The notes under the pieces are model-generated. The model was not told the origin of the DNA, searched no databases, and saw only the letters and a program-made list of their open reading frames with translations. From Methanobacteriota archaeon (GTDB lineage Archaea > Thermoplasmatota > Poseidoniia > Poseidoniales > Poseidoniaceae), in assembly GCA_011526375.1 (NCBI GenBank), contig WTIT01000113.1, positions 1-37,768 of the forward strand: 37,768 nucleotides of DNA, read 5' to 3'. This document shows, piece after piece, positions 22,245-25,898 of the stretch (position 1 is the stretch's first letter; every line of letters begins with the position of its first letter). A program made the position numbers and the translations under genes.

Positions 22245-22601
22245 TTAGAGCGCTTTCTCTAGTAAGTTACCAAGTTCTTTCTCGAATAAGGATACTAGAG
22301 CTTCTCCGACTTCGCCTTGTAGATCATCTGGAAGCAGTCGTAATCCTAGCCTTGTTGCGGCTCTTGTTGCTTTCAATTCTGCATATATCGATCGTGCTTT
22401 AGATTGGAAGTAATATGATACCGCTTCCTTAATTTCGGCCTTAAGATCTGGGTCGGCTTCAACCTTATTCCTAATATGAGTTTTCAATTCATCCTTGACT
22501 ATGTCTCTGAAGGCTTCTATAACTAAGTCTTCTGTGGACATTAAGTCCTTGATTTGGTCTTTGATGCTACCAGTTAGCAATCTCTCGATGGCCATGACCA
22601 T
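22245..22601 (-). CDS. Small all-helical protein of unknown function
   Basis: A 118-residue protein I do not recognise. It is predicted almost entirely helical and highly charged, with amphipathic stretches such as LVIEAFRDIVKDELKTHI and EALVSLFEKELGNLLEKAL. It has no signal, cysteine motif or membrane helix. An in-frame ATG at 22595 is an equally good start. It follows the RecJ-like gene by 37 bases on the same strand, in the S15 cluster. In many archaea the gene after recJ in this cluster is a KEOPS component (Pcc1), but this protein shows no Pcc1 features. Confidence 0.75.
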   Translation of the reverse strand: MVMAIERLLTGSIKDQIKDLMSTEDLVIEAFRDIVKDELKTHIRNKVEADPDLKAEIKEAVSYYFQSKARSIYAELKATRAATRLGLRLLPDDLQGEVGEALVSLFEKELGNLLEKAL

Positions 22602-22638: not shown

Positions 22639-23538
22639 TTATGATAGTTTTCCTTCGGAAATCAAACCTCTTAGAACGCTTGCTGCATGAGATTTACTAG
22701 TATCTTTTTCACTAGGCCAAAGAGATTTAACTCGATATATCTGACTGTGCAAATCTGCTTCATTCTCGCTAATCACTATCCTAAACCACAGTAGTTCTTC
22801 TAACCGTGGAGTTGATATTTTACCGTCCGACAAAGTTGGCAAGACAAGTTCACTCATTGCTTGTTTTCTTTGGTCAAAATCCATTTTGGACCACTTTTTT
22901 GTCAGTCTATTTAGTAAACTTGTAGGGAAATTAGGTATCATTTCGGTATCTGGATTATTTATCTCTGGCAGTGGCAAAACTCGTATTGAACCTTCATTTT
23001 GTAGGATGTCTCTAATTTTGGTATAGACAGGATCATATGAATTATCCAGTGATTGACGCAACCATTGACCACTTCCTGATAGGGCTCTAAGCCGTCTAAC
23101 TCGTGGGCCATTGGGAGCAATAATCGATGCGATTGCTGCACATTGAATTACCACATCAAGGGCTCCATTATGCTGCTTTTCCGAATTAGGATGAGAAACT
23201 GAAACCGACAAGGGAACGATTCTTACTCTACCTTCATCGTCAATTTGTTCTTGATCCCAAGTTTCCTCAAATTGTTCTATACTTATTACAAGCTGAGACG
23301 AAGTTGAGAAATCATATTGCTCTCCCTTAGGTTGGTGGGCAACCGATTGCAGAATCTTACGGGTGTAGGGAATCTTGGAATCAATCATTGCTGATTCTAA
23401 AAATGCCAATGAAACAATACTATCGAGGTCTGCTGTAGCAAAAATTGCCACATTGTTAGATTTGGTGATCTTCTCTGTTACCGAAATTATTCTGTCTTTT
23501 GCATGACGGAATAAATCAGTTTCGAGTAAATCTTCCAT
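22639..23538 (-). CDS. Degenerate RecJ/DHH-family-like protein beside S15 (possible Cdc45-type homologue)
   Basis: A 299-residue protein. The N-terminal region AIFATADLDSIVSLAFLESA (residues 31-50) resembles DHH motif I, keeping Asp37 and Asp39. The expected motif II (QLVISIEQ, 82-89) lacks its Asp, and the place where the DHH triad should occur reads SVSHPNS. A helical C-terminal half follows. In many archaea a RecJ-like nuclease that partners GINS in the replicative helicase complex is encoded next to S15, as here. I infer an inactivated RecJ/Cdc45-like protein, but the sequence match is weak. The ATG at 23538 is preferred over an upstream TTG at 23547. Confidence 0.6.
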   Translation of the reverse strand: MEDLLETDLFRHAKDRIISVTEKITKSNNVAIFATADLDSIVSLAFLESAMIDSKIPYTRKILQSVAHQPKGEQYDFSTSSQLVISIEQFEETWDQEQIDDEGRVRIVPLSVSVSHPNSEKQHNGALDVVIQCAAIASIIAPNGPRVRRLRALSGSGQWLRQSLDNSYDPVYTKIRDILQNEGSIRVLPLPEINNPDTEMIPNFPTSLLNRLTKKWSKMDFDQRKQAMSELVLPTLSDGKISTPRLEELLWFRIVISENEADLHSQIYRVKSLWPSEKDTSKSHAASVLRGLISEGKLS

Positions 23539-23586: not shown

Positions 23587-24045
23587 TCACTCGACCATTA
23601 GTCTTAGTTCATCTCTCTTGTATCGCCAATCTGAAGGAAGTTTACCTTCTGTAATGTAGTACTTTGCGAGTTTTCTAATCTTGGCTTCGGTTAATTCCAA
23701 TGACCTTTTGTTGTGAATGTCCTTATGATTACCACTGCCGAGGTGTTCGATTATTCGCACTGCTTGTCTCATCAAGTTCATCATATCTTCGGGGTATGTA
23801 CCACCAATGTTGTTTTCAGCAAGAATTGTTCCGATTCTCTTGCCGGTAACTAGTCTGACATTTGGCACTGCATGCTGATCTCTTAACACGGTACCGATTT
23901 GTGCGGTTGAATGACCAGCTTTGCCCATTTCAACGACTAGTTTTACAACTTCATCGGAGTTGGTATTGGACCATTCTGGAGCCTCTGTAACATATGGCTT
24001 AGAGGAGCCGCTTTTTCCTTTTCTTGACTTGTACATACGTGCCAT
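23587..24045 (-). CDS. rps15: 30S ribosomal protein S15 (archaeal S13e type)
   Basis: A 152-residue small-subunit protein. It begins MARMYKSRKGKSGSSKP, typical of archaeal/eukaryotic S15/S13e, with the conserved GHSTAQIGTVLRDQ segment and an S15-type helical bundle that binds 16S rRNA. The start is the ATG at 24045; a GTG three codons upstream has no support. The stop codon of an 11-codon open frame (24047-24082) lies one base before this ATG. It leads a run with the RecJ-like and 118-residue genes downstream, and follows arcS by 77 bases. Confidence 0.95.
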   Translation of the reverse strand: MARMYKSRKGKSGSSKPYVTEAPEWSNTNSDEVVKLVVEMGKAGHSTAQIGTVLRDQHAVPNVRLVTGKRIGTILAENNIGGTYPEDMMNLMRQAVRIIEHLGSGNHKDIHNKRSLELTEAKIRKLAKYYITEGKLPSDWRYKRDELRLMVE

Positions 24046-24122: not shown

Positions 24123-25898
24123 CTACAACCGTTGATGTCCCTTAGCAAGCATACCAGGTGTTGTTGACCATTCCCATCCCGATGCTACGGCTCTTGCTAA
24201 TCCTACAGGTTGGCCATTTTGCAAAACCAATAAGTCGTCACCAGAATTAATACCAGCGTCATAACTTTCCAGTATATTAGAAAAAATGTCACCTTTCCAT
24301 GAAACCTCGGAGTTCAGATGTATCTGTCTTAATGATGAATTCGCTGAAATTAGCGGAATTGAAGATTTCGCCAACGAAAATCCCCTCCGATCATTAGACC
24401 AAAGTGCAATCTGTTTACCCTCAAGCTCGATTCGCCAGAATGGTGGTTTCCCACGGATACTAACGTTCTCAAGCCAAAGATCGTTTTCCATCTTGTAACG
24501 GGCAATACTAGCGAAGTTATCTAACAATATCTTGTGATGTTTGCGATTTCTTGTGACATGCTGTTTGCTGACCTCAGCGACTGTAGTGCGTAAATTCTCC
24601 AGTGCTTCACGTGAAGTCGCAGATTTTCCGACTCTTGTTTCGAAGTAGTTGATACCGGGTAAATCAAAAGACATAGAGGAATGGTTAATCACTGTGTGAT
24701 AGTTATTACTCTCAAGCAAGGATTTCAACATGTGGCTAGTGCGTTCTATCTCATCTAGACTCCACTCACCTGTTACCGGAATGTCATAATGCGAAGCAGG
24801 CCAGGTTTCCTCTAAATCTCTTGGAACCAATCCCAAAGGCGAGGTTACCATTACTTCGTGGAATGCACTATGCCCTATAGCATCCAGGAACTTTCTGTGT
24901 GATTTTGACATCCTGTACGGCTTTCTTGCTGAACATGGCAGTAACATCAGAACATTATCTAGACCTTCAGGTGGTTGATATTCATCTGTCATGAAATCAA
25001 CCCACTTTGATACCACTGGATTGCTAAGAGATGTGTGAGAATTGCAATGTAAAATAGTGCTCTTATCTACATGAGAAATTCCGATATTGGTATTTTCCCT
25101 CGTTAATTTATCATGGTAGCGAAGGTGCTCAACTAAACTGGGGCTGTTTAGTGATTGTTGCTCGACAAGTGTTCTGAGAGTTCCGTCCGCAAGCCTTGCT
25201 TTTACCTCATTAATGGCTGACTTCCAGTGGATAAGTTGAGACTCCAAGTCAGCTTCTTCACCTGAGGATGAAACCAAGTCTCGAGGCCCAGCAGCGGTTA
25301 AGAGAACATTTGATGCTGTGCATTGCCGTGATCTAGATAAATCAAAAATATCAACTCCAAACCAAACAAGAACAGCTAAATTATCTGGTCCGCCGATGCC
25401 AGGAGTCCAGATTAATGAGCCTGGAAATCTATGTTTAATGGTAACTAGGGCATCAACAAGTTTGCCTTGTTGTGAAGCAAGTTGAGGTGCGTCTACTAAA
25501 ACTACTATGCTTGGTTCAGTTGCTAAATTTAGTAAAGAAGAATCATGATTCAACCTTTGCCATGAAATCGGTAATAGTCCGCCATGGCCAGCAGCCTCAC
25601 CAGCATCTGCCTCATCAAGAGAAGGTGGTAGAACATGACCTATTTTAGTTTCATAAATTGGTGAATTTTCTGTAAAATTCGGAGGAGACAATGGTAAGTT
25701 AGCAGTTACTGTTAGGGTTTGAGGGATTTCGTTGTTTGTTGATGCATTGAATGGTGTGATTTGAGCGTTAGTTTCACAATCCCCGTCCAGACCAATCAAA
25801 CAGGGAGTTGTTGCCAGTGGTGATTTTCTATCACCCAAGGCCCAACTTCTCGCATACATGTAGCGATGAATTACTGTACGACCTAATTCATTCGCCAT
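24123..25898 (-). CDS. arcS: Archaeosine synthase (TGT-like, DUF5591 and PUA domains)
   Basis: A 591-residue tRNA-modifying enzyme. ArcS helps convert preQ0, inserted at position 15 of archaeal tRNAs, to archaeosine. Residues of about 1-260 are TGT-like, with DNLAVLVWFGVDIFDLSRS. The diagnostic PCSARKPYRMSKSHR motif (321-335) of the ArcS core follows. The last 75 residues form a PUA RNA-binding domain ending GQPVGLARAVASGWEW. The length fits full-size ArcS. The primary transglycosylase (TgtA) gene is not in the window. The 79-base gap 25899-25977 holds divergent promoters for this and the plus-strand membrane protein gene. Confidence 0.92.
   Translation of the reverse strand: MANELGRTVIHRYMYARSWALGDRKSPLATTPCLIGLDGDCETNAQITPFNASTNNEIPQTLTVTANLPLSPPNFTENSPIYETKIGHVLPPSLDEADAGEAAGHGGLLPISWQRLNHDSSLLNLATEPSIVVLVDAPQLASQQGKLVDALVTIKHRFPGSLIWTPGIGGPDNLAVLVWFGVDIFDLSRSRQCTASNVLLTAAGPRDLVSSSGEEADLESQLIHWKSAINEVKARLADGTLRTLVEQQSLNSPSLVEHLRYHDKLTRENTNIGISHVDKSTILHCNSHTSLSNPVVSKWVDFMTDEYQPPEGLDNVLMLLPCSARKPYRMSKSHRKFLDAIGHSAFHEVMVTSPLGLVPRDLEETWPASHYDIPVTGEWSLDEIERTSHMLKSLLESNNYHTVINHSSMSFDLPGINYFETRVGKSATSREALENLRTTVAEVSKQHVTRNRKHHKILLDNFASIARYKMENDLWLENVSIRGKPPFWRIELEGKQIALWSNDRRGFSLAKSSIPLISANSSLRQIHLNSEVSWKGDIFSNILESYDAGINSGDDLLVLQNGQPVGLARAVASGWEWSTTPGMLAKGHQRL

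Follow-up and report, generated by a model that had tools for sequence, protein, structure and literature searches.

A degenerate RecJ/Cdc45 orthologue with eroded nuclease motifs and no DHHA1 domain beside the S15 gene of Poseidoniales

The window analysed here is the whole stretch of 37,768 nucleotides of contig WTIT01000113.1, from a Methanobacteriota archaeon of the order Poseidoniales. On its minus strand, an open reading frame starts with an ATG at 23538, ends with a stop codon at 22639 and encodes a protein of 299 amino acids (22639..23538, stop included). The gene of ribosomal protein S15 (23587..24045, minus strand; NF006331, E 1.9e-55) lies directly upstream. S15 is adjoined on its other side by an archaeosine synthase-like gene (24123-25898, minus strand), whose product carries DUF5591 and is a divergent form, scoring 245 bits against the ArcS equivalog cut-off of 440. 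A preliminary description of this DNA, made from the letters alone, had placed an eroded RecJ-like gene at 22639-23538. These coordinates were right, and the strand is added here. It had also suggested that annotation might overlook the protein. Consistently, the protein had no match above cut-off in Pfam or NCBIfam, and Pfam matched none of the 45 family members scanned.

The reading frame is a real and constrained gene, because it is a conserved single-copy frame with low dN/dS. By profile search, a homologue was found in 96 of 119 genomes of the class (about 100 Poseidoniales were sampled), and all sampled Poseidoniales carry the RecJ-like gene except one genus, g2. The named relatives with a homologue are Poseidoniales, or Marine Group II, for example the MG-II chromosome CM001443 and Candidatus Poseidonia alphae. 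The single-copy homologue is free of internal stops in 37 of 40 close relatives, and dN/dS between close pairs is about 0.03-0.13, which indicates purifying selection. A decaying pseudogene or a chance reading frame, which the deletion of the gene in two lineages might bring to mind, is already refuted by this conservation, with an intact single-copy frame in 96 genomes, and the confident predicted fold also speaks against it.

The AlphaFold model of the window protein (built with 45 sequences) reached a pLDDT of 90 and a pTM of 0.90. When it was compared with the PDB by Foldseek, the top 43 matches were all RecJ, GAN or Cdc45. The best match was Pyrococcus RecJ (5x4i, E 3.8e-7, probability 1.00), followed by GAN (5ghr/5ghs), the archaeal ternary complex 7e15, the Methanothermobacter RecJ-Cdc45 and M. 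jannaschii RecJ2. Further down the list came Cdc45 of the human, Xenopus and yeast CMG, and then bacterial RecJ; Cdc45 of the human replisome (7pfo) matched at E 8.6e-4. A library of viral structures yielded nothing beyond distant phage RecJ. The model and the Foldseek matches showed that the DHH Rossmann-like core is present, and no other family matched better. A PDB sequence search with the family profile returned chance matches only (MthK, E 0.17), and a weak match to GMT-wHTH (E 0.14) was discarded.

Profile comparison gave the same answer. The family profile scored 33.5 against the profile of S15-adjacent Thermoplasmatota RecJ, whereas column-shuffled controls gave 15.5 ± 2.4 and none of the 60 scored as high; the alignment was collinear, from 11-260 of the query to 11-282 of the 460 template columns. 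The N-terminal part alone scored 30.5 against the RecJ profile, versus 11.9 ± 2.4 after shuffling (0 of 100). Residues 1-185 (22984..23538, minus strand) form the DHH-domain core according to the predicted secondary structure and this alignment, with strands at residues 30-35, 58-63, 83-87, 105-107, 110-115 and 122-127 and flanking helices. The RecJ relationship that the preliminary description had suggested was thus borne out by both structure prediction and profile comparison.

The position of the gene is conserved as well. S15 was found at 78 of 80 named Poseidoniales loci, in every case preceding the RecJ-like gene on the same strand; at the two other loci the contig starts at or inside the RecJ-like gene. 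The gap between the two genes is below 300 bp in 71 loci (usually 50-100 bp) and about 1.05-1.1 kb in seven (L152, L155, L156, L157, L158, L163 and L176), where a gene has possibly been inserted. About 24 other Thermoplasmatota have, directly after S15, a RecJ of about 405-468 amino acids; its motifs are canonical in nearly all of them, L119 being a clear exception. Pfam detected DHH and DHHA1 in 18 of the 19 such proteins scanned and DHH_CID in 13 of them. Since fold, profile similarity and synteny agree, our results supported the view that the window gene occupies the S15-RecJ position as a degenerate orthologue of RecJ/Cdc45. Two genera of a sister family of the same class (g12 and g68 of family f3) keep the canonical RecJ at S15, and no genome carries both the eroded and the canonical form. 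Because of this mutual exclusion and the canonical RecJ of the sister family, the erosion can be placed on the Poseidoniales branch. In another Thermoplasmatota family (f5; L098, L099, L102, L112 and L113), S15 is present and no RecJ was seen among the reading frames of at least 90 amino acids directly downstream of it.

The metal-binding active site has been lost. In the window protein, motif I is reduced to A36-D37-L-D39-S (23419..23433, minus strand) at the place of the canonical HYDxDG, with the DxD retained, and profile and family alignments put Glu88 (23275..23277, minus strand) at the position of the motif II Asp. Motif III has no DHH triad. These are the three features that the preliminary description had read from the sequence, a DxD kept and the motif II Asp and the DHH triad lost. 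Across 91 family members, D37 occurs in 59, D39 in 9 and both in 7, and 44 have an Asp at the motif II position. Could the protein still be an active, very divergent DHH phosphoesterase? The D37 and D39 of the window protein and the Asp at motif II in about half of the family would fit this reading. However, D37, D39 and D88 occur together in 0 of 91 members, the DHH triad and the GGGH motif are each found in 0 of 91, and the half of the active-site groove that DHHA1 provides is gone. We consider residual activity of this kind highly improbable; judged by its sequence, the window protein is not a nuclease.

The DHHA1 domain, which binds single-stranded DNA, is wholly missing. The window protein stops where the canonical DHHA1 (about residues 351-446) would begin. 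Pfam found no DHHA1 domain in any of the 45 family members, and the C-terminal half did not match the DHHA1 profile (100 of 100 shuffles scored as high). Residues 186-299 (22642..22983, minus strand) are almost all-helical in the AlphaFold model; from residue 206 onward the chain is helical save for one three-residue strand, and this part has no beta sheet. Compared with the central CID/linker region of RecJ, the C-terminal half gave a weak score of 16.5, versus 12.4 ± 2.0 for shuffles, 6 of 100 of which were as high, and the Pfam DHH_CID was undetected in the 45 members scanned. The model and the profile alignment suggest that these helices are a probable equivalent of the CID/linker. There is no split or hidden DHHA1 gene downstream: the next reading frame, about 40 bp past the stop (22245..22595, minus strand), encodes an unrelated all-helical protein of 116 amino acids. 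This conserved downstream protein has a mean column identity of 90% in Poseidoniales and matches no family; AlphaFold gave three long helices with a low pTM of 0.43.

In two lineages the gene is absent from the S15 locus altogether. In g67, a genus of the sister family, the next gene after S15 is the methyltransferase-like one that in g68 comes after RecJ. In g2, which belongs to Poseidoniales, S15 runs directly into a converging membrane-protein gene. The flanking genes are intact at these loci (L295-L299 in g67, L300-L303 in g2). Profile search of the g2 and g67 genomes found no RecJ elsewhere, only NrnA-like and AlaRS-type DHHA1 matches. Two independent lineages thus appear to have deleted the gene cleanly at this locus, an apparent outright loss, though a relocated copy may have diverged beyond sequence recognition. 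MCM is present in both g2 genomes examined, and one of them has a Gins51-like match. Since g2 is without the gene and yet has MCM, the RecJ-like protein is not indispensable within Poseidoniales. This absence in two related lineages, the missing DHHA1 and the poor conservation of the DxD across the family were not part of the preliminary description.

Putative replication partners are encoded in the same genome as the window protein. MCM was found in 38 of 40 relatives. The Pfam model Gins51_C missed GINS in Poseidoniales genomes. A search profile built from Thermoplasmatota Gins51 matched about half of the genomes (21 of 40), including that of the window, where a divergent Gins51 candidate of 351 amino acids was detected (E 2.1e-8). 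At its B-domain-like C-terminus there is a weak match (E 0.0044), short of the cut-off, to the PSF1 C-terminal domain family. This candidate gene lies near an EF-1 alpha-like gene (L248 1486-2541, minus strand, on contig C141). The co-occurrence with gins genes that the preliminary description had pointed to is therefore seen in the window's own genome, together with MCM. No canonical RecJ was found elsewhere in Poseidoniales genomes, only NrnA-like, exopolyphosphatase-like and N-terminally extended DHH proteins. The two other DHH proteins of the window's genome were considered as the main RecJ, and neither is RecJ/GAN: in one of 465 amino acids the DHH domain is preceded by an N-terminal extension, as would fit the NAD-binding-fused type, and one of 337 amino acids looks NrnA-like. 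A third DHH-type protein of about 350 amino acids, in genomes of the same genus, is also of a different kind.

The strongest conservation within the family lies away from the catalytic positions. The near-invariant residues are E48 and D53 in helix alpha2, Y58 and R60 in strand beta2, G157, W159, D165 and D169, and in the C-terminal part S242, R245, E247, E248 and W251, within the block S-T-P-R-L-E-E-L-x-W-x-R (242-253). None of them is a catalytic position, and the metal ligands drift among the 91 members. In human Cdc45, the B-domain of the GINS subunit Psf1 binds the edge strand beta2 of the DHH domain and its flanking helices (PMC4873980). GAN binds Gins51 essentially as Cdc45 binds Psf1, and the CID of Cdc45 binds MCM (PMC5484177). 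Several of the near-invariant residues map to this alpha2/beta2 edge, whose strand in the window protein is YTRKIL (residues 58-63; 23350..23367, minus strand) with invariant Y58 and R60. A GINS-facing edge that is nearly invariant and metal ligands that drift are what is expected of a scaffold holding GINS to MCM, which is not proof of such a role.

A RecJ-derived protein could also have been repurposed for a role outside replication, for example one related to RNA or the ribosome. Its neighbours are S15 and the archaeosine synthase-like gene, the near-invariant block at 242-253 is new and unlike canonical RecJ, and MCM persists in the genus that lacks the gene. However, RecJ/GAN proteins with a proven or predicted part in replication are encoded in the same S15 neighbourhood in many archaea (PMC3307487), the invariant parts of the protein include the GINS-facing edge, and searches of Poseidoniales genomes gave no other candidate for RecJ/Cdc45. 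The S15 neighbourhood by itself is no evidence for a replication role. We regard such a repurposing as unlikely, although it is the most probable of the alternatives.

The window protein is best explained as a nuclease-dead RecJ/GAN orthologue without DHHA1, and we consider it likely that it acts as a minimal Cdc45 scaffold. A RecJ/GAN gene sits beside S15 in most archaea; in the ancestor of Poseidoniales it would have lost its metal-binding active site and the C-terminal, ssDNA-clamping DHHA1, leaving a nuclease-dead DHH core with a helical extension. The edge strand of the DHH core would dock the B-domain of Gins51, and the helical extension, serving as a CID, would contact the MCM ring. In this way the protein could brace GINS on MCM and contribute to helicase activation without cutting or threading DNA. 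The preliminary description had named it a candidate Cdc45-like replication factor. The degenerate RecJ/Cdc45 orthologue in this proposal stands on fold, profile and synteny, whereas the replication role is one that we infer.

Proteins of this general kind are already known. The archaeal RecJ/GAN beside S15 (arCOG00427, for example T. kodakarensis GAN) shares the fold, the place after S15, the single copy and the collinear profile with the Poseidoniales protein, which is about 150 amino acids shorter, has no DHHA1 and no DHH triad, and does not conserve motif I and the motif II Asp in its family. Inactivated RecJ orthologues near S15 have been described in Halobacteria (arCOG00428), Desulfurococcales (arCOG00432) and Thermoproteales (arCOG05692), where they are thought to be structural parts of the replisome (PMC3307487). 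Poseidoniales are a different lineage and, because their sister family keeps an active-type RecJ, their protein was inactivated independently. DHHA1 core elements are predicted in arCOG05692 (PMC3307487), in contrast to the Poseidoniales protein. The GINS-bound RecJdbd of Sulfolobus (arCOG05902) is a degenerate RecJ derivative (PMC3307487), reported to consist of the C-terminal DNA-binding part, its nuclease domain missing or deteriorated, whereas the Poseidoniales protein has kept the DHH core and lost the domain that binds DNA. Eukaryotic Cdc45 likewise has a dead DHH core and a helical middle region, and presumably the same function as a GINS/MCM brace. Unlike the Poseidoniales protein, Cdc45 (566 amino acids in human) still has a DHHA1-like domain, and its CID is complete, including a three-stranded sheet. 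The new points are the Poseidoniales case itself, a truncation that removed DHHA1 but spared DHH, opposite to that of RecJdbd, and the apparent outright losses. None of the papers searched reported these points or mentioned Poseidoniales with Cdc45, and the one match for Marine Group II with RecJ was off-topic.

In the model of Makarova et al. (2012), all archaea have a RecJ/Cdc45 homologue in their replication machinery; its nuclease activity is dispensable, whereas DHHA1, its DNA-binding domain, is probably crucial (PMC3307487). An abundant marine archaeal order appears to keep the opposite part. We give an even chance to the further proposal that CMG in Poseidoniales works with the DHH core and helical extension alone, and that Cdc45 is dispensed with entirely in g2 and g67. 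If so, nuclease activity and the ssDNA-clamping domain would both be unnecessary for the conserved function, and the two losses would contradict the view of RecJ/Cdc45 in all archaea. Active, dead and truncated, and apparently absent forms make up a natural series, so which piece of Cdc45 the CMG needs becomes directly testable. The analysis also gives a probable function to a protein unmatched by any family model. In another Thermoplasmatota family, one genome (G040) has a full-length S15-adjacent RecJ (L119 2935-4230, minus strand) that is eroded, with 'SARTVAS' at motif I and neither DHH nor GGGH. From its motifs, this looks like a further independent inactivation.
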